A model generated the notes under the pieces. The model had not been told where the DNA came from. It saw only the letters and a program-made list of their open reading frames with translations, and ran no database searches. Of a stretch of 23,987 nucleotides of DNA, positions 5,012-15,544 are shown piece by piece. The stretch lies in the IMG/VR virus record IMGVR_UViG_3300017788_002015, positions 1 to 23,987 of that record, one strand, 5' to 3'. Position numbers and translations under genes: made by a program. This stretch comes from a virus. The stretch's first letter is position 1. Each line of letters begins with the position of its first letter.

Positions 5012-5386
5012 TGGTGGAGATGAGGGGAGTCGAACCCCTTTCCAATAACCGAATCAACTATTCGACTACACGTTTATAGTTTTTGGTATTTTTGTAAAAA
5101 CAATTCTAAAACTCAAAAGTTGTTTTTCTTTAGATTTAAATTTCAGCATCAATTTCAATCACCTTTCAATGCCAATCACAATAATGTCATAATTAAAACT
5201 ATTGTGAATTATTTTAATTACGGGTGACCAATTAGGCCACAGCGAGAACTTCTTCCTCTACAGGAGTGAAGTCATATGCGATTACGTTTTTAGCGTGTAT
5301 CTTTTGATAGAATTTTAACGAGGCCAACTATCATCCTCGACGTGCCGAACAGCCTTTTTAATTACTGTCGAAACCAGTACATCCCC
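5012..5386 (-). ncRNA. ssrA: tmRNA (one-piece, phage-encoded), about 375 nt
   Basis: Transfer-messenger RNA, which rescues stalled ribosomes and tags nascent proteins. The 5' end at 5386 reads GGGGATGTACTGGTTTCGAC, the conserved tmRNA start. The 3' end at 5012 reads AGGGG-TTCGACT-CCCCT followed by CATCTCC-A-CCA, a T-arm plus acceptor with encoded CCA. GGGGATG (5') pairs with CATCTCC (3') over 7 bp with one G-U. The resume context ACGUAAUC-GCA precedes a 15-codon tag ending in UAA. The middle (about 5040-5230) has space for pseudoknots, which were not folded. SmpB is not visible in the window and may come from the host. The gene sits between the 494-aa gene and the 59-aa plus-strand frame, with its own promoter at 5410-5437. 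Confidence 0.95.
5232..5279 (-). other. tmRNA tag reading frame, AYDFTPVEEEVLAVA
   Basis: From the resume codon GCA (5279-5277) the frame reads AYDFTPVEEEVLAVA and stops at UAA (5234-5232). It is 15 residues, acidic in the middle and hydrophobic at the end. The C-terminus is LAVA rather than the common ALAA, which is relevant to recognition by ClpXP-type proteases. Confidence 0.9.
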
Positions 5387-10166: not shown

Positions 10167-10284
10167 TTTAGGTGAACGTGTGGCGGAATGTAAAGACGCT
10201 AGCGAACCCGGAAACGAGTGTGAGACTAGAAGCTTGCCTCTATCGCCGGTGCGGGGAAGAACCGCAATATAGCGAGATGCGACA

Positions 10285-10685
10285 ACGCTTTGGCAGGAAA
10301 GACTGAACGAGTTGAATTGATGCCCATTGGCGAGCAATCAAAAACTATGAACGAAGAAACGAAACTCCCGACAACCAACGACCCAGAAACGGCAGAGGAC
10401 AAGGGCCGTTGTGCTCCAGCGCCTTGTTCGGACTTAAGCCACCGAGAGATAGCGACTCTCCATTTTAGGGCCGTGAAGCCCCCAAACAGGAAATACTGGA
10501 TGGCGTATCTCGAAGACCGAGGCGTGCTCATCCCGAACATCGTGAAGCCTACGCGACAAAAACTGTGGGAAGAACTTGAGAACATCGCAAAACTTCGGGG
10601 GCATCGCTTTGTCAGCGAATGCTACCTGATATAGTCCGAACTCTTGATTATGCGAACGATAATTACAAACACCAAATGAGACTGA
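10285..10685 (+). ncRNA. Group I intron-like core (approximate ends)
   Basis: Candidate self-splicing group I intron (IA2-like, as in T4 td). Element P is AAACGGCAGAGG at about 10387-10398, Q is GGGCCGTTGTGC at about 10403-10414, R is TTGTTCGGACT ending about 10434, and S is GATATAGTCC at 10628-10637, an exact match to the usual S block. P and Q can form P4 (ACGGC with GCCGT). GTTCGGACT is fully complementary to AGTCCGAAC in S over 9 bp, consistent with an extended P7. ATTAT-GCGAACG-ATAAT after S could be P9. The R-to-S distance is large, as when an ORF sits in P8. Splice sites were not determined. Confidence 0.55.
10347..10634 (+). CDS. Intron-located ORF, 95 aa, unrecognised
   Basis: ATG at 10347 to TAG at 10632-10634, whose last bases overlap the S element. 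The N-terminal 35 residues are low-complexity (EETKLPTTNDPETAEDKGRC) and overlap the P/Q/R elements, so they may be RNA structure read as protein. Residues 40-95 look more like protein (RKYWMAYLEDRGVLIPNIVK, then a Trp/Leu helix LWEELENIAKLRG). No LAGLIDADG, HNH or GIY-YIG signature is seen, so it is not called a homing endonuclease. A TTG at 10290 would extend it by 19 residues. No ribosome-binding site is seen. Confidence 0.4.
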   Translation: MNEETKLPTTNDPETAEDKGRCAPAPCSDLSHREIATLHFRAVKPPNRKYWMAYLEDRGVLIPNIVKPTRQKLWEELENIAKLRGHRFVSECYLI

Positions 10686-10748
10686 ACCTCTAGCGACGCA
10701 TCATGCAGGTTCAAATCCTGCCACGCTCACTTTATTTTCAATTAAAGG

Positions 10749-10776
10749 TTGACTTCTGTTAAAATAAGTCTAAGAT
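10749..10776 (+). promoter_or_regulatory. Early-type promoter of the second rightward tRNA-like element
   Basis: TTGACT, 16 nt, TAAGAT. The predicted start, about 10783, is just ahead of the inverted repeat that bounds the tRNA-like element, so here the module drives an RNA gene and probably the zinc-finger gene behind it. Confidence 0.75.
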
Positions 10777-10786
10777 GTTCTCAGTT

Positions 10787-10926
10787 GTTTGACTAACGGT
10801 GTGTTGGAACTGGAATACAACCGAAGAATCAAGTTGACCAGCAGACTAATGATCTGCTAATAGGGATTTGGTTCAAGTCGGAGAGTCATTCTCTTACAAG
10901 TTCGAATCTTGTCACGTTAGTCAAAC
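10787..10926 (+). ncRNA. tRNA-like RNA closed by a 12-bp stem
   Basis: GTTTGACTAACG (10787-10798) and CGTTAGTCAAAC (10915-10926) pair perfectly. Inside are a D-arm-like hairpin (GTTG-GAACTGGAATA-CAAC), a strong anticodon-like stem (AGCAGA/TCTGCT with a 7-nt CTAATGA loop), and a canonical T-arm (ACAAG-TTCGAAT-CTTGT) followed by CACGTTA. Spacers before and after the anticodon-like stem are far too long for a normal tRNA (about 17 and 38 nt), and the middle also holds a GAGA/TCTC hairpin. It may be a degenerate or specialised tRNA. No identity is assigned. Confidence 0.5.
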
Positions 10927-10942
10927 GACGCAATTTATACAA

Positions 10943-11107
10943 ATGGATACCGTCAAATTGTTGATGCATACAAAGTGTGGTCCCGGTGGAATTCACTGCC
11001 CGTGTTGCAACCGTGGGAAGGGAAAACATCGGAAAATGATGACCCGTAATATCCGTCGTTCCATGAAACATGACTTGGCGAAGGAGAGTTATGACGAATC
11101 CAACTGA
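10943..11107 (+). CDS. Small zinc-finger-like protein, 54 aa
   Basis: 54-aa basic protein MDTVKLLMHTKCGPGGIHCP... with a Cys/His cluster (KCGPGGIHCPCCNRGKGKH) at residues 11-29, likely to bind zinc, then an Arg/Lys-rich helix (MTRNIRRSMKHDL). Small proteins with an MHTKCGPGG-HC-CC core are common and uncharacterised in phages. The start chosen is ATG at 10943, after the tRNA-like element; an earlier in-frame ATG at 10868 would read through that RNA and is rejected. The last 17 nt overlap the next gene, whose Shine-Dalgarno sequence lies inside this one. Confidence 0.75.
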   Translation: MDTVKLLMHTKCGPGGIHCPCCNRGKGKHRKMMTRNIRRSMKHDLAKESYDESN

Positions 11108-11357
11108 ACTCCAATCGGTTAGGGAACTAATCGAATCTGTTGGCGGAAAGCCAAACGCACGTTACTACCGTGCAATGAAGTCGTCACGTCAGTTGGAAAA
11201 CATCAATTCCCTTCCCATTAAACAGGTGGAAGGAACAGACTACAAGGTGGTTTTGACCAACGGAAAAGAAATAAAAGTCTTTGTTCCTAAAGGAGATAAC
11301 GTCTTTCGGATTGTGACAGAAGCAGGTTATGAAGCCCAATCGGCGATGAAGGCTTGA
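11091..11357 (+). CDS. Hypothetical protein, 88 aa
   Basis: The start at 11091 is set by AAGGAG 5 nt upstream, one of the few good Shine-Dalgarno sites here, fitting a downstream gene translated from a polycistronic mRNA. The protein has an N-terminal helix (TELQSVRELIESVGG), a basic segment (ARYYRAMKSSRQLENINSL) and a small beta domain (YKVVLTNGKEIKVFVPKGDN). No function is recognised. The stop TGA (11355-11357) is embedded in the -35 hexamer of the next gene's promoter, which makes the penultimate codon Ala (GCT). Confidence 0.75.
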   Translation: MTNPTELQSVRELIESVGGKPNARYYRAMKSSRQLENINSLPIKQVEGTDYKVVLTNGKEIKVFVPKGDNVFRIVTEAGYEAQSAMKA

Positions 11358-11381
11358 CTTCTTTTAATAAACTGATATTCT
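11354..11381 (+). promoter_or_regulatory. Leaderless-type promoter of the 43-aa gene
   Basis: TTGACT, 16 nt, TATTCT, 9 nt to the ATG at 11391. The -35 contains the stop codon of the upstream gene. Confidence 0.88.
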
Positions 11382-11390
11382 ATTTCCACA

Positions 11391-11522
11391 ATGAACGAGA
11401 AACAGATTCCAAACTTCGACGAAACCATTCTTGCACTTGAGCAAATCTTCCGTGACCTTGGTTACTCGAAGCTATTCTGGCCGAATCTCGCCAAGAAGGA
11501 CGAGATTGAATCCAAAAATTAA
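11391..11522 (+). CDS. Hypothetical protein, 43 aa
   Basis: 43-aa protein MNEKQIPNFDETILALEQIF..., mostly one amphipathic helix with a basic and aromatic C-terminal half (YSKLFWPNLAKKDEI). The ATG stands exactly 9 nt after the -10 box, the diagnostic position in this phage. No function is recognised. It is followed 10 nt later by the 72-aa gene, probably on the same mRNA. Confidence 0.7.
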   Translation: MNEKQIPNFDETILALEQIFRDLGYSKLFWPNLAKKDEIESKN

Positions 11523-11532
11523 CCCTGACAAT

Positions 11533-11751
11533 ATGACTCTTATCAAGAAAGTTGTCTCCATCGGAGATCTTCGACAGAAGGCTAACAAGGATCCTAAATA
11601 TCTCCAGCTGGCCATGATTTCCGCAAGAAATCTCGGAGGAACATCCAAAAACCTTGATGACGCCATCAACTGGTTAAACACCAATGCATTAGAGACGGAT
11701 GAAGATGGTGTGGTCGGAGAGATAAACTTTTGTCGAGATTTGGTCAAATAA
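11533..11751 (+). CDS. Hypothetical protein, 72 aa
   Basis: 72-aa helical protein: MTLIKKVVSIGDLRQKANKD, then LQLAMISARNLGG, DDAINWLNTNA and an acidic C-terminus. Repeated helix-turn-helix spacing resembles a small helical bundle, but no DNA-binding signature is clear. It lies 10 nt after the 43-aa gene without a Shine-Dalgarno sequence. An in-frame ATG at 11431 would overlap the 43-aa gene in another frame and is not preferred. Confidence 0.7.
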   Translation: MTLIKKVVSIGDLRQKANKDPKYLQLAMISARNLGGTSKNLDDAINWLNTNALETDEDGVVGEINFCRDLVK

Positions 11752-11754
11752 TTG

Positions 11755-11782
11755 TTGACCTTCTATAAAAAACAGTTACTGT
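11755..11782 (+). promoter_or_regulatory. Leaderless-type promoter of the 75-aa gene
   Basis: TTGACC followed by an A/T-rich spacer and TTACTGTTTTCACAA-ATG. The discriminator matches the family exactly, but the -10 (GTTACT) is shifted to a 14-nt spacer, so this is a deviating member. Confidence 0.7.
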
Positions 11783-11790
11783 TTTCACAA

Positions 11791-12018
11791 ATGAAAACAT
11801 TCAAATTCATCGTTATCAACAAGAACAACATGACGCAACTTCGTCATTTCACTACGGCGGATCAAATATCCAGCTACTTTCTCGGGCGGCAGCTGAACAG
11901 CCACTTGATCATCGTTAACGAATGTAAGATTCTCAAGCTAGCTGATTACCCCGAACTTAATGATGGTCGGAAGTTGAAAACTTTGATTGATTCGTGGTCC
12001 AAGTTTAATGAGGATTGA
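11791..12018 (+). CDS. Hypothetical protein, 75 aa
   Basis: 75-aa alpha/beta protein: a strand (MKTFKFIVINKNNM), a helix containing QISSYFLGRQ, a second strand (HLIIVNECKILKL) and a C-terminal helix. The start at 11791 follows the TTTTCACAA discriminator. Its stop TGA (12016-12018) lies within the -35 TTGATT of the next promoter. No function is recognised. Confidence 0.75.
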   Translation: MKTFKFIVINKNNMTQLRHFTTADQISSYFLGRQLNSHLIIVNECKILKLADYPELNDGRKLKTLIDSWSKFNED

Positions 12019-12042
12019 TTTTGGTTAAAATAAGTCTAAACC
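12015..12042 (+). promoter_or_regulatory. Leaderless-type promoter of the 68-aa gene
   Basis: TTGATT, 16 nt, TAAACC, 9 nt (GTATTCACA) to a GTG start at 12052. The -35 contains the stop of the upstream gene. Confidence 0.8.
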
Positions 12043-12051
12043 GTATTCACA

Positions 12052-12258
12052 GTGAATCAAGAACTCAACACCATCAAAAACAGTCTCACCAAGCTCCTCA
12101 ACGCTAACGACATCAAGCCGAACACCAAGAAGGCTCAGATGGCCGAATTCTGTTTCCTTCAAGGTTTGATGGCGACAGGAAATGTCGGTGGTCGTGGAAT
12201 TCCAACTCAAACTCTCGCTCTCTGCATGGTATCCGGTCGGTCAATCCTCAGTCTGTAA
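12052..12258 (+). CDS. Hypothetical protein, 68 aa, GTG start
   Basis: 68-aa protein with helices at 1-20 (MNQELNTIKNSLTKLL) and 30-45 (KAQMAEFCFLQGLMAT), ending in a Gly/Ser/Leu segment (PTQTLALCMVSGRSILSL). The GTG start is fixed by its position 9 nt after the -10 box and by the TTCACA discriminator, not by a ribosome-binding site. Small proteins of the pattern NAEFCFLQGLMA are known from large phages without a defined role. Confidence 0.75.
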   Translation: MNQELNTIKNSLTKLLNANDIKPNTKKAQMAEFCFLQGLMATGNVGGRGIPTQTLALCMVSGRSILSL

Positions 12259-12266
12259 AAACCCTC

Positions 12267-12272
12267 TAAACT
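12267..12272 (+). promoter_or_regulatory. Possible -10 box of the zinc-ribbon gene
   Basis: TAAACT within AAAAACCCTCTAAACT, the same 16 bases that carry the -10 of the 9424-9451 promoter. No TTGAC-like -35 stands 16 nt upstream, and the ATG is 16 nt downstream rather than 9. It may be a decayed copy. Confidence 0.35.
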
Positions 12273-12288
12273 CTTAAAACAACCTGTT

Positions 12289-12438
12289 ATGCCCGAAGAA
12301 CTCATTGATTGGGAGAAGGAATACGTCGCTGGTAGGTGTCCAGATTGTGGTGAGTATATCCCAGAGACAGCTCAAGAGGGAGATGAATGCCGTAATTGTG
12401 GCCATGTTTTTTGGAAATTTAGGCCATCCGACCATTAA
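12289..12438 (+). CDS. Zinc-ribbon protein, 49 aa
   Basis: 49-aa acidic protein with two CxxC knuckles: CPDC at residues 18-21 and CRNC at 36-39, spaced as in a zinc ribbon, followed by GHVFWKF. Such mini zinc ribbons may act as adaptors or nucleic-acid-binding modules; no partner is visible. It lies 30 nt after the 68-aa gene, and its own promoter is weak, so readthrough is likely. Confidence 0.75.
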   Translation: MPEELIDWEKEYVAGRCPDCGEYIPETAQEGDECRNCGHVFWKFRPSDH

Positions 12439-12442
12439 ACGG

Positions 12443-12470
12443 TTGATATTTCCTATAAAAAGTCCATACT
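12443..12470 (+). promoter_or_regulatory. Leaderless-type promoter of the 103-aa basic gene
   Basis: TTGATA, 16 nt, CATACT, 6 nt to the ATG at 12477. This is the short-spacing variant of the family. Confidence 0.8.
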
Positions 12471-12476
12471 GTGTGC

Positions 12477-12788
12477 ATGAAAACAAACAAGACCACAGTG
12501 ACCAAAAGGGTGACGGTCAAGACAATCACCACCAACAAGGCCGTAAAATGCCCAATGGGCGGAACTTATCGTAAAGGAACAGTCTTGTGGCGGGAGAAAG
12601 AAGTCAATAAGACTACCGGCTTTCGGATTCGCAAGGATGGTTTTGTGGTTAATATGGGACATGGACTGGATTTCCTGGTGCCGATGGATGCATTGACTTT
12701 AACCAGAACCACTTACAACGAAGTGACCACGGTGACAAAGAAGAATAAAAAGACGGAGAAGCTGACCGAGAAGGACTTCGGATGGTAA
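12477..12788 (+). CDS. Basic hypothetical protein, 103 aa
   Basis: Very Lys/Thr-rich protein (MKTNKTTVTKRVTVKTITTN ... VTKKNKKTEKLTEKDFGW) with a central beta-rich domain (FRIRKDGFVVNMGHGLDFLVP). It may bind nucleic acid, but no motif is recognised. The ATG at 12477 is preferred over the GTG two codons upstream because of the 6-nt distance to the -10 box. It is the last rightward gene and converges on the leftward block. Confidence 0.75.
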   Translation: MKTNKTTVTKRVTVKTITTNKAVKCPMGGTYRKGTVLWREKEVNKTTGFRIRKDGFVVNMGHGLDFLVPMDALTLTRTTYNEVTTVTKKNKKTEKLTEKDFGW

Positions 12789-12913
12789 ATAAACCCAGTC
12801 AAACCCTCCCCGTGGGCAACCCACCGACTTCCGATGGAATGTCGTGGAACTCGAACGATTCCACAATACAACTGTTAATTTGTCCCGTGGGCCGAAGACT
12901 TACAAGATACACC

Positions 12914-13090
12914 TCAAGTCCAATATGCTTGATAGCAAAGAAGTGGACGTTTCCCCCCCTTAATTACCGATTCGTTGTCAATCAACAATTCATGCGCGGT
13001 CGTTTTATTCGTCCTAACCTTAGTAGTGAGTATGTTATCAACGAGATACTCTTTTAGTGTATCAACCAATCTGAATGTTTCTTGTATCAT
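12914..13090 (-). CDS. Hypothetical protein, 58 aa
   Basis: 58-aa protein MIQETFRLVDTLKEYLVDNI... with an amphipathic N-terminal helix and a basic C-terminal half (ESVIKGGKRPLLCYQAYW). The start is fixed by the promoter at 13100-13127, with 9 nt from the -10 to the ATG. It is the last leftward gene before the convergence at 12789-12913. That 125-bp gap holds a GTGGG-CAA-CCCAC hairpin but no clear U-tract terminator. No function is recognised. Confidence 0.7.
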   Translation of the reverse strand: MIQETFRLVDTLKEYLVDNILTTKVRTNKTTAHELLIDNESVIKGGKRPLLCYQAYWT

Positions 13091-13099
13091 TGTGAAAAT

Positions 13100-13127
13100 A
13101 GATTATCAGTTTATTAAAAGAAGTCAA
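13100..13127 (-). promoter_or_regulatory. Leaderless-type promoter of the 58-aa gene
   Basis: TTGACT, 16 nt, TAATCT, ATTTTCACA, ATG. The -35 contains the TGA stop of the 119-aa gene. Confidence 0.9.
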
Positions 13128-13483
13128 GCCGTCTGAGTATTATTACGAAGAAAGTTGGAAACTACTTCAACGTAACGATTTACGTCTTTATCAACTTCCA
13201 TCGTCCAATCATTTAGAGGGAATCCAACCGAATCGGTCGTCCAAGTATCATTTTCGGCGTGGTAAAACTCAAAAACGATACCGTCAACGTCACCTTCCCA
13301 CATGGGAGAACAATATAAACAAGTGAATGGAACTCCCTTATGAACTCCAATCCGTTCAAGACTGATTGAACCCGTCATTGGACAAGAGCCGAAGTCTCGG
13401 TGATCTTTGACCAACTTCGGAGTGAAGACGAAGTAAAGATAACGATAAAAGAGGCTCTGTTCGTTCTTACAGACAGGTTTCAT
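13124..13483 (-). CDS. Hypothetical protein, 119 aa
   Basis: 119-aa aromatic-rich protein. N-terminal MKPVCKNEQSLFYRYLYFVF, then a Cys/Met segment (DFGSCPMTGSISL, CLYCSPMWEGDVDG) with two spaced cysteine sites, and a C-terminal helix (YVEVVSNFLRNN). No family is assigned. Leaderless-type start. The stop TGA is embedded in the next promoter's -35, giving the typical ...TA ending. Confidence 0.8.
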   Translation of the reverse strand: MKPVCKNEQSLFYRYLYFVFTPKLVKDHRDFGSCPMTGSISLERIGVHKGVPFTCLYCSPMWEGDVDGIVFEFYHAENDTWTTDSVGFPLNDWTMEVDKDVNRYVEVVSNFLRNNTQTA

Positions 13484-13492
13484 TGTGGAAAT

Positions 13493-13520
13493 ATCTTACT
13501 CTTAATTTATAAAAAGTCAA
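13493..13520 (-). promoter_or_regulatory. Leaderless-type promoter of the 119-aa gene
   Basis: TTGACT, 16 nt, TAAGAT, ATTTCCACA, ATG. Confidence 0.9.
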
Positions 13521-13525
13521 GCCTC

Positions 13526-13813
13526 TTACCAACCTTCTTGGCGACTAGAAATTCGACTCAATCTAAAAGTCTCGTTCGTGACGTAATGCATTCCGTCGTG
13601 GTTGTTAAAATTCCATAGATCAAGCGGATGTCCACGACGTTGTTCCCATTCCTTTACAAGTTCGTTAAAGTGAAAGGGTCCGTCGTAACCACAGTCTTCA
13701 TAGCCGTAGTCACTGACGATGTAAAATCCATCACAGTCGCCAAACTTAGAGATGACGGACTGCTTGAGATCTCTCCGATACATCCACTTCAATCGTCTTT
13801 CTCGTGCGGTCAT
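13526..13813 (-). CDS. Hypothetical protein, 95 aa
   Basis: 95-aa protein with a basic N-terminus (MTARERRLKWMYRRDLKQSV), an acidic aromatic centre (DCDGFYIVSDYGYEDCGYDG) and a basic C-terminus. No family is recognised. The ATG is 6 nt after the -10 box. The stop (TAA) is 6 nt from the next gene's -35 hexamer. Confidence 0.78.
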   Translation of the reverse strand: MTARERRLKWMYRRDLKQSVISKFGDCDGFYIVSDYGYEDCGYDGPFHFNELVKEWEQRRGHPLDLWNFNNHDGMHYVTNETFRLSRISSRQEGW

Positions 13814-13819
13814 GGAAAG

Positions 13820-13847
13820 AGATTACCACCAATTTATAATTAATCAA
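13820..13847 (-). promoter_or_regulatory. Leaderless-type promoter of the 95-aa gene
   Basis: TTGATT, 16 nt, TAATCT, CTTTCC, ATG (6-nt variant). The -35 contains the stop of the 82-aa gene. Confidence 0.85.
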
Positions 13848-14092
13848 GCCACATCATTGAACATTTCCTCCGGCCATGCTGCTAGGATGGATGTAATAGT
13901 GACGTTAATATGGTCAACTGCATTGGCGACAGTTTGCGTGACTCCAAGTTCGTGTTGCGTTGCCAACACCCCATCAATCGCCGCAATGGTGCTTTTCCAT
14001 CCGGCTTCAGCGGCCCCGGCACGCTTCTCAGCAATCGTGAGAAGTTCAATGCATCGGGATCGAATCTTTTTTAGTTTTTCTGTGGTGTTCAT
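13844..14092 (-). CDS. Hypothetical helical protein, 82 aa
   Basis: 82-aa protein, largely helical: MNTTEKLKKIRSRCIELLTI, then ALA-rich helices (KRAGAAEAGWKSTIAAIDGV) and a Val/Ile/Thr-rich segment. A coiled-coil start is plausible. It lies 12 nt after the 64-aa gene and is probably co-transcribed; a TATAAT box stands 11 nt before its ATG but without a good -35. The stop lies in the next -35. No function is recognised. Confidence 0.75.
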   Translation of the reverse strand: MNTTEKLKKIRSRCIELLTIAEKRAGAAEAGWKSTIAAIDGVLATQHELGVTQTVANAVDHINVTITSILAAWPEEMFNDVA

Positions 14093-14104
14093 AAGTTTTA
14101 CAAA

Positions 14105-14299
14105 TTATATCATATCATCATTGATAATGTCTCCCGTCAACGATTTCAAATCAACCACCGATGAAATTTCACGAATGATTCGATTTTTCTCTCCACTAAC
14201 TTCTGTTATTGACTTAAATTCATCTCCTAAAGACAACCACAACTGAATCTCTGGTCTGAGATGAGTGTAGTTATTGACTTTAATTTTAATGATTTCCAT
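14105..14299 (-). CDS. Hypothetical protein, 64 aa
   Basis: 64-aa protein MEIIKIKVNNYTHLRPEIQL... with an N-terminal beta strand and mixed charged sequence ending SLTGDIINDDMI. The start is fixed by a promoter with 6 nt between the -10 and the ATG. No family is recognised. First gene of a two-gene unit with the 82-aa gene. Confidence 0.72.
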   Translation of the reverse strand: MEIIKIKVNNYTHLRPEIQLWLSLGDEFKSITEVSGEKNRIIREISSVVDLKSLTGDIINDDMI

Positions 14300-14305
14300 T
14301 TGAAT

Positions 14306-14333
14306 AGTGTAGGATTAAAAATCCGATTGTCAA
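14306..14333 (-). promoter_or_regulatory. Leaderless-type promoter of the 64-aa gene
   Basis: TTGACA, 16 nt, TACACT, ATTCAA, ATG (6-nt variant). Confidence 0.85.
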
Positions 14334-14353
14334 TAAAATTTTGATCTTGTTGG

Positions 14354-14536
14354 CTACTTCCTTCTCAACCTCAGATGCAACTGCTCGGGGGTAGTCGGTA
14401 GTGAGAGCCAACTTCGGCCCTCAAGTTCCGCAACACGCTGGCGTAGTTGGTTGCATTCGGCTAATGCTCGCTCATAAAGTTGACCGTTTGTCGTCCTTGA
14501 CTCCTCTGCCTGTTCAAAATCAGTCCTCGACTGCAT
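14354..14536 (-). CDS. Coiled-coil hypothetical protein, 60 aa
   Basis: Start at 14536: the ATG overlaps the upstream stop as TGATG and has a strong GGAGGAAC site 5-12 nt upstream, so translation is coupled. The product is MQSRTDFEQAEESRTTNGQL, then ALAECNQLRQRVAELEG (heptad-like coiled coil) and an Arg-rich end. In-frame earlier starts (TTG at 14569, ATG at 14560) would overlap the upstream gene by over 20 nt and lack the site. The coiled coil suggests oligomerisation or binding to a partner. Confidence 0.72.
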   Translation of the reverse strand: MQSRTDFEQAEESRTTNGQLYERALAECNQLRQRVAELEGRSWLSLPTTPEQLHLRLRRK

Positions 14537-14685
14537 CAGCAGTTCCTCCGCCTTCCGCATCCGTTCCAAGTGATCATTACATCATTAGGTTTTGGGTCGG
14601 TTGAGTCTATCTGTTGTGTTACCACGCGTAGTAGCTTCGTCAGTTCCTTGGCGAGTGCCAGTTTGAGGGAGAGATCTGTGTTCAT
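14536..14685 (-). CDS. Hypothetical protein, 49 aa
   Basis: 49-aa protein MNTDLSLKLALAKELTKLLR..., an amphipathic helix followed by a polar linker and a short Cys/Arg-rich tail (WNGCGRRRNC). The start is chosen by the promoter (8 nt from the -10). It forms a translationally coupled pair with the coiled-coil gene. No function is recognised. Confidence 0.7.
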   Translation of the reverse strand: MNTDLSLKLALAKELTKLLRVVTQQIDSTDPKPNDVMITWNGCGRRRNC

Positions 14686-14693
14686 TTCGATAA

Positions 14694-14721
14694 ATGTTAA
14701 CCCAAACGAACCGACTGTCAA
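14694..14721 (-). promoter_or_regulatory. Leaderless-type promoter of the 49-aa gene
   Basis: TTGACA, 16 nt, TAACAT, 8 nt, ATG. The -35 contains the stop of the 115-aa gene. Confidence 0.8.
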
Positions 14722-15065
14722 ATCAAACCCAACACGAGCAACCAACTCGGGCTGCCATATTCGTCATGTCCATCGGGTTCGACACGGGCACCAGTAGGAG
14801 TCTTGCACACACCATCATTCATCCACCGTTCGAGAGTATTGAAAGAAGGAATCTTGCCGAAAGTAACACCTTGAGCTTTTACCGTGGAAGCGAGAAGTTT
14901 CGTCACCAAAGGTCGCTCGTAACCAGTTGAATCCTTGAAGAACGCCCGAGATTCCATCTCCGGCTTAAAGTAAAGTTCAATCTCGATTCCAGCGGGAAAT
15001 TGAGCCGGCTTGTTGCTCTTGGAGTAGGTCAACTGACGAATCGTGGTGCATTTGATCGTTTTCAT
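14718..15065 (-). CDS. Conserved-type hypothetical protein, 115 aa
   Basis: 115-aa protein MKTIKCTTIRQLTYSKSN..., with a beta-rich N-terminal half (FPAGIEIELYF) and a distinctive C-terminal block: KIPSFNTLERWMNDGVCKT, then VEPDGHDEYGSPSWLLVLGL. The SFNTLERW...EPDG...GSPSWLLVLGL signature recurs in many phages and bacteria in small proteins of unknown role. Leaderless-type start. The final TGA is in the next promoter's -35. Confidence 0.85.
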   Translation of the reverse strand: MKTIKCTTIRQLTYSKSNKPAQFPAGIEIELYFKPEMESRAFFKDSTGYERPLVTKLLASTVKAQGVTFGKIPSFNTLERWMNDGVCKTPTGARVEPDGHDEYGSPSWLLVLGLI

Positions 15066-15074
15066 TGTGGAAAT

Positions 15075-15102
15075 ATCTTACCACTAACTTAAAATAAGTC
15101 AA
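15075..15102 (-). promoter_or_regulatory. Leaderless-type promoter of the 115-aa gene
   Basis: TTGACT, 16 nt, TAAGAT, ATTTCCACA, ATG. Confidence 0.9.
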
Positions 15103-15108
15103 GCCCCA

Positions 15109-15207
15109 TCACGGGTTCAGTATGATATACGCAATAGTTACCCAAACAATAAGTGTCAACCAGAAATGTATCTGGTTCATCAGTTTCTCAGTTGTCCACA
15201 GTTTCAT
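15109..15207 (-). CDS. Tiny membrane protein, 32 aa
   Basis: 32-aa frame MKLWTTEKLMNQIHFWLTLI..., with one hydrophobic segment (residues 13-31, FWLTLIVWVTIAYIILN) that would span the membrane and a charged N-terminus. It starts 22 nt after the 3' end of the tRNA-like element at 15230-15429 and may be co-transcribed with it. No ribosome-binding site is seen; the existence of the gene is inferred from the clean membrane segment and tight fit. Confidence 0.5.
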   Translation of the reverse strand: MKLWTTEKLMNQIHFWLTLIVWVTIAYIILNP

Positions 15208-15229
15208 TTAATTTTTCACACGATTTTAG

Positions 15230-15429
15230 TGAACGTGTCAGGATTTGAACCTGTATGATGTTTGTCGGTTGCCCTTGCATTGGTTTCCGTAGAGTTATTC
15301 CCTCCCGTTGGTTTGACAATACTCATCGCTATGTCTAGTAGCTACAAGCAAGTGCTGAATGAGTTTTACGTCATCAGGTCAGGTTTTGCTACCCTATTGC
15401 TTTGCGTCTTTACATTCCGCCACACGTTC
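15230..15429 (-). ncRNA. Expanded tRNA(Leu)-like RNA, about 200 nt
   Basis: The 5' end reads GAACGTG-TG-GCG-GAATGTAAAGA-CGC (identical over 27 nt to 10173-10199) and the 3' end reads ACAGG-TTCAAAT-CCTGA-CACGTTC-A. The acceptor strands pair perfectly (GAACGTG/CACGTTC) and the D-arm and T-arm are tRNA-Leu-like. The middle is about 145 nt instead of about 35. It holds AAGCAA/TTGCTT and GCTA-CTAGACA-TAGC hairpins but no clear anticodon arm. No CCA is encoded. A possible promoter -35 (TTGACA, 15508-15503) lies about 75 nt upstream. It is either an interrupted tRNA or a small RNA with a tRNA-like domain. Confidence 0.6.
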
Positions 15430-15544
15430 AAAAGAACAAAAACTATTAAATTGGTGGAGACTATCGCGCCCCGGCGTCTGATTTTCACAGAGGGATAACG
15501 AATGTCAATCCGTTATCACCAAAGAACTGTGGACATCTTATATT

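Follow-up and report, generated by a model that had tools for sequence, protein, structure and literature searches.

The IMG/VR phage record IMGVR_UViG_3300017788_002015, analysed here over its whole length of 23,987 bases (the window), carries two loci on opposite strands, RNA A and RNA B, whose ends resemble those of a leucine tRNA and whose middles do not. Very probably each locus specifies an RNA that is stable, does not decode and carries a payload open to exchange. On balance we favour the fuller reading that A and B are phage RNAs built on a tRNA-Leu chassis, in which the payload replaces the anticodon region and most plausibly counters host defences. They belong to an RNA class that appears to be widespread in bacterial viruses and undescribed. 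The two loci have the following features:

10174-10729, plus strand: RNA A, 556 nt, a tRNA-Leu-like frame with a 505-nt payload
10174-10180, plus strand: acceptor 5' strand of A, GAACGTG, with 6 of 7 pairs to 10722-10728 (CACGCTC) and one A.C mismatch
10183-10199, plus strand: D arm of A, GCG-GAATGTAAAGA-CGC, Leu type with the D-loop GG lost, the same in B and, by pattern, in 28 IMG/VR contigs
10200-10704, plus strand: payload of A, 505 nt
10276-10281 (GATGCG) with 10697-10702 (CGCATC), plus strand: possible variable-arm helix of A, ending 2 nt before the T stem
10705-10729, plus strand: T arm of A, GCAGGTTCAAATCCTGC (T stem GCAGG/CCTGC), acceptor 3' strand CACGCTC and A73
15429-15230, minus strand: RNA B, 200 nt, the same frame as in A with a 149-nt payload
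15404-15429, minus strand: acceptor 5' strand (15429-15423), TG and D arm (15420-15404) of B; acceptor GAACGTG/CACGTTC, 7 of 7 pairs
15255-15403, minus strand: payload of B, 149 nt
From 15327, minus strand: possible variable-arm helix of B, in which GATG+TTGTC would pair with GACAA+CATC and stop 2 nt short of the T stem; a candidate by pairing match only
15230-15254, minus strand: T arm of B, ACAGGTTCAAATCCTGA (T stem ACAGG/CCTGA, one A.A), acceptor 3' strand CACGTTC and A73
15481-15508, minus strand: promoter-like site about 50 nt upstream of B, TTGACA-16-GAAAAT with TG; a consensus match alone (1 found, 0.9 expected in shuffles)

Both RNAs share one layout: a 7-bp acceptor, TG, a 3-bp D stem (GCG/CGC) with an 11-nt loop, the middle, a 5-bp T stem closing the T loop TTCAAAT, the acceptor strand and A73. 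An earlier note on this DNA had pointed to 27 shared nucleotides at 10173-10199 (plus) and 15430-15404 (minus), and this identity is exact; the matching 3' halves that it described extend over 33 nt at 91% identity. The two middles, of 505 and 149 nt, bear no relation to each other and have no stretch of more than 8 nt in common. The note was also right that they do not correspond to an anticodon arm and that neither locus encodes CCA, A73 being followed by CTT or CTA. ARAGORN and Rfam (gathering cut-offs) gave no call at A or B, their sole match in the window being a transfer-messenger RNA (tmRNA) at 5012-5386. A strict scan of the window for the acceptor/D/T frame recovered B only, A failing by its A.C mismatch, and found nothing in 10 shuffles. 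The variable-arm helix of A is possible and weak, a 505-nt payload being expected to hold a 6-bp match by chance. Payload A also contains an open frame of 114 codons (10290-10634, plus strand), possibly a real gene in the loop and possibly a chance occurrence, with no homologue in Pfam, PHROGs or a tblastn search of phages. No relatives of the window's phage were found through a neighbouring gene of 200 amino acids.

The wider class was collected by searching the D-arm sequence in IMG/VR, and later by scanning with the 3' half and with variants of the D loop. The complete frame is present in 26 of the 28 contigs matching the D arm: a T arm and a pairing acceptor strand, both absent from the search pattern, were found downstream. 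At least about 200 distinct middles, 19 to 505 nt long, were obtained in 178 fetched loci. Retrieval relied on patterns of the D arm or the T arm, which biases counts on these two arms but neither the payloads nor the acceptors of the GTAAA and mixed groups; detection is tied to Leu-type D arms. The earlier note had asked for a homology search combining the acceptor/D/T frame with a variable middle. Such a detector returned 252 frames in 1.77 Mb of related loci versus none in the reversed sequence, and these relatives, which number in the hundreds and have covarying ends, support the note's suggestion that the loci represent a new class of phage RNA. A match from genome contigs, L032, was discarded as a chance occurrence inside an apparent ATPase gene. 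The acceptor/T geometry is 7/5, or 7/6 in Firmicutes phages; these last (L196-L216) have a 6-bp T stem and the T loop TGCAAAT, with G at position 55, which is uncommon in the elbow of a tRNA. Copy number reaches 8-17 in some phages, the maximum being 17 clustered T-arm/acceptor copies (none in the control), and these arrays sit among ordinary tRNA genes. Literature searches found no description of the class; preprints and most subscription papers lie outside these searches, and an earlier description is possible.

Several lines of evidence suggest that the frame acts as an RNA structure. In the GTAAA group, double substitutions affect 6 of the 7 acceptor positions, with a single non-pair in 126 cells; in the mixed group they affect all 7. 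T stems covary too, in the other groups. The last payload base is T (U48, the partner of A15) in 195 of 208 frames; A14A15 is found in all 208, being partly fixed by the search, and A73 in 177. A helix is also enriched near the 3' end of the payloads. A helix of at least 6 bp with its 3' strand ending 2 nt before the T stem occurs in 59 of 154 payloads versus 19.4 in shuffles. The enrichment lies at an offset of 2 (or 3) from the T stem, with no excess at offsets 0, 1, 5 and 6, and we interpret this helix as the class II variable arm of tRNA-Leu. It covaries within payload families (for example GGGTACA/TGTACTC, GGTAACA/TGTTATC and GAACACA/TGTGTTC). Given this terminal helix, a crossing helix forming an H-type pseudoknot is found 25 times versus 14.8 (standard deviation 2.7), and hairpins 5' of the terminal helix show no excess in the same conditional test. 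A universal pseudoknot, to which several payloads had pointed, was rejected: a first test was weak (46 versus 40.7), and in the conditional test support was limited to a subset of the class. Overall fold energy of the payloads was not diagnostic (z about -1), and a k-mer comparison of payloads identified no general motif across the class. Some payloads (L010, L137 and others) include a second T-arm-like hairpin inside the middle, such as GAGGTTCAATTCCTC and GGGTTCAAGTCCC.

These data bear on the possibility that the ends are recombination targets at the DNA level, or parts of a selfish cassette, with passenger DNA in the middle and a functionless RNA. Constant ends around a variable middle, horizontal exchange confined to the unit (see below) and the help that conserved ends would give to homologous exchange are all expected of such a cassette. 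A DNA site, however, needs neither covarying acceptor, T, terminal-helix and payload stems nor a conserved U48, and we regard this explanation as very improbable.

Could these genes be decoding tRNAs with introns, or decayed tRNA copies? Their Leu-type ends and the tRNA-type pairing of their acceptor, D and T arms would fit, and group I introns in tRNA-Leu are well known. However, middles of 19-37 nt occur, and the shortest (19-20 nt; L067 reads AGGG-TACT-CCCT with a 4-nt loop) are too short for an intron plus an anticodon arm, which disfavours an intron-bearing tRNA. Hairpins resembling an anticodon arm (5 bp with a 7-nt loop) are found in 7 of 141 payloads versus 7.0 in shuffles, compared with 21 of 26 canonical Leu tRNA controls, and no Rfam group I intron (RF00028) was matched around A and B at E<=10. 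The unusual introns that the earlier note had offered as an alternative are contradicted by these observations, and the decay that it had also considered is at odds with the many conserved copies and with compensatory substitutions, which affect the acceptor, the T stem and the variable arm. There is hardly any probability left for either. The same note had compared the loci to a tRNA-like domain joined to another RNA, as in tmRNA. The layout and the non-decoding character stand, but none of the features specific to tmRNA was found: neither ARAGORN nor Rfam gave a tmRNA model match with a tag reading frame at A or B, and the alanine identity pair G3-U70 is missing (positions 3 and 70 form an A.C mismatch in A and an A-U pair in B). 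Apart from generic tRNA, no family of Rfam 15 gave a gathering-score match over the RNAs, and permissive scans gave nothing credible. The 8/4 or 9/3 acceptor/T domain and the anticodon arm of allo-tRNAs are likewise absent, the geometry being 7/5 or 7/6 with no anticodon arm.

The ends and the middles behave differently between phages. Eight phages of Lactobacillus plantarum or pentosus and a ninth, labelled Hujiaoplasma phage, together span several unrelated genera and have near-invariant ends (GTGCTTG-TGGCGGAATAGGTAGACGC ... GTAGGGTGCAAATCCCTAC-CAAGCAC) around mostly unrelated middles of 31-162 nt. For the L. plantarum phages phiJL-1 and Sha1, the RNAs would measure about 110 and 84 nt, respectively, before CCA addition. 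As read from such comparisons, the ends are host-adapted. Homology between unrelated phages, judged in the same way, often stops at the RNA boundaries. Thus Satyr and Lenus have 108 nt in common in 3-kb stretches, in effect the RNA alone, and 151 nt and 86 nt are common to the unrelated phages represented by L153/L228 and L081/L100, respectively. Conversely, two B. subtilis phages, Grass and SBSphiJ, match at 92.7% identity across 3.2 kb and have the same ends but different payloads, that of Grass being the payload of SPP1, an unrelated phage. The SPP1 RNA, which would measure about 110 nt before CCA addition, is unannotated and lies between genes 9 and 11; its predicted pseudoknot combines CCTC/GAGG with GTACGGG/CCCGTAC. 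Directly after it comes a second short, unannotated tRNA-like element (L196 3110-3165, X89721; T arm GGGTTCAATTCCC, ends ACGGAC/GTCCGT). In Grass, a sub-threshold Rfam match to abiF RNA, which is part of an abortive-infection system, lies upstream of the RNA (L211 2343-2378; 21.6 bits for a cut-off of 37, E 0.4) and is probably due to chance.

A single payload core recurs in five frames, each with a different acceptor and one of them from Flavobacterium phage FL-1. The other 16 matches of the core scan were rejected as frameless, chance-like and mostly in coding DNA. A payload family (L153, L197, L228, L229 and L244) has the conserved core CCAG-CTAAGTARTGTCTTATGCC-(TTCG)-GGTA-CTGG, reminiscent of an aptamer or a protein-binding site. 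A core retained in five frames is what a fixed protein or RNA partner would predict, and could indicate that the payloads are regulatory RNAs of the phage programme, either antisense RNAs or sponges that titrate host components (RNA-binding proteins, RNA polymerase or the ribosome), with the frame serving processing and stability only. The arrays among tRNA genes would also be compatible with this role. Replacement of the payload at the same locus in phages 93% identical is nevertheless unlike a core regulator, and payloads are common to unrelated phages and share no class-wide motif. We therefore consider a regulatory role unlikely.

On the reading that we favour, a tRNA-Leu chassis with an exchangeable payload, host RNase P and RNase Z would excise the RNA from its transcript and CCA would then be added. 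The ends, buried in the tRNA fold, would keep the RNA stable, and the payload, projecting at the position of the anticodon arm, would be the working part. Many members may in addition be leucylated. The anticodon is dispensable for the E. coli leucyl-tRNA synthetase (LeuRS), which requires A73, A15-U48, G18G19 and the elbow, and a tRNA-Leu truncated of its anticodon and variable arms is still charged (PMC9976931). Leucylation is therefore plausible for members with A73, A15-U48 and the D-loop GG. These elements are frequent in the AGTC group (A73 in 124, U48 in 126 and GG in 133 of 138 members); the corresponding figures in the GTAAA group, which includes A and B, are 19, 26 and 3 of 27.

Charging might even be the main purpose. 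The RNAs would then be leucylated, anticodon-less tRNA mimics, tuned by their payload and acting in or around translation through tmRNA-like ribosome entry or titration of LeuRS, EF-Tu or tRNA enzymes. That the E. coli LeuRS elements are retained and the anticodon arm lost (PMC9976931), and that the ends track the host, agrees with this proposal. It fits poorly with a GTAAA subgroup without the D-loop GG and with A73 in only 19 of 27 members, with the lack of a tag reading frame at A or B (ARAGORN, Rfam) and with the many different payloads per phage, which charging alone does not explain. We judge it quite unlikely.

For the payloads themselves, the replacement at a given locus, the multi-copy arsenals and the transfer between unrelated phages of one host are best fitted by counter-defence, with payloads that would act as RNA decoys or antitoxin mimics against host defences. 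By analogy, we propose this role tentatively. There is a precedent in phage PhiTE, whose pseudo-ToxI RNA mimics an antitoxin pseudoknot and counters ToxIN (PMC3475682). More speculatively still, phages may hold arsenals of as many as about 17 interchangeable RNA effectors per genome. Their common tRNA frame, matched to the host, would draw on its tRNA maturation and possibly charging enzymes, and every payload would be directed, as a decoy or antitoxin, at a separate defence or protein of the host. Several points weigh against our interpretation. The class is so far described at the level of sequence. No payload matched a known antitoxin or defence RNA, Rfam scans giving nothing credible, and the defence role is an analogy from the evolutionary pattern only. 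No close relatives of A and B were found, so that any selection on their own payloads is conjectural, and the loss of the D-loop GG in 24 of the 27 members of their subgroup makes leucylation doubtful there.

The window also includes genes for a tail-collar protein, PhoH, a T4-type RNA ligase and a phosphoesterase, together with two other RNA elements:

About 10786-10928, plus strand: RNA C, a probable third, divergent Leu-type RNA (fold z -4.9)
5012-5386, minus strand: an ordinary tmRNA (ARAGORN and Rfam) with the predicted tag AKNVIAYDFTPVEEEVLAVA

RNA C has a well-defined fold, with a long hairpin at its centre and a terminal stem that is bulged and extended. Its T loop is TTCGAAT, and its Leu D arm, TGTTGGAACTGGAATACAA, recurs unchanged in a Leu(UAA)-type tRNA of L248/L249.

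If these RNAs are made, they constitute a large class of viral non-coding RNA, apparently undescribed, which tRNA finders overlook or call wrongly. Members occur in model phages, SPP1 for example, and in many phages from the environment. Our interpretation, if true, would mean that nature uses the tRNA-scaffold trick and that tRNA processing, perhaps also charging, is uncoupled from decoding on a large scale. It would also provide a searchable source of candidate RNA-based counter-defence elements. As isolated phages carry members of the class, bench testing is feasible now.

Among known systems, tmRNA (ssrA, RF00023) has a similar tRNA-like acceptor/D/T part around a long non-tRNA middle, and pseudoknots occur in part of the phage class; however, the latter has a Leu-type D arm rather than an Ala-type domain, no G3-U70 and many payloads per phage. 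With the class II tRNA-Leu of phages it shares the D arm, A15-U48, the T loop, a mostly conserved A73 and a helix ending 2 nt before the T stem, but it lacks the anticodon arm and has an exchangeable middle of 19-505 nt. The bacterial Y RNA (YrlA) is a non-coding RNA with a tRNA-like module, whereas in the phage class, which gave no Rfam match, the tRNA fold itself forms the outer frame. Allo-tRNAs and irregular tRNA polycistrons (Mukai 2017, reviewed in PMC7609411) are also unusual tRNA-like genes in arrays, some of them unusable in translation. They have 8/4 or 9/3 domains, Ser or Ala identity and anticodon arms, in contrast to the 7/5 (or 7/6) geometry, Leu type and missing anticodon arm found here. 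Pseudo-ToxI and type III antitoxins (PMC3475682) offer a functional analogy, being phage non-coding RNAs that are pseudoknotted, multi-copy and evolving by expansion and recombination, but they consist of tandem 36-nt repeats with no tRNA frame and no sequence match to them was found. The engineered tRNA scaffold (Ponchon and Dardel; PMC3753655) likewise keeps the acceptor, D and T arms and places a foreign RNA at the site of the anticodon arm; its phage counterpart is natural, Leu-based and mobile between phages.

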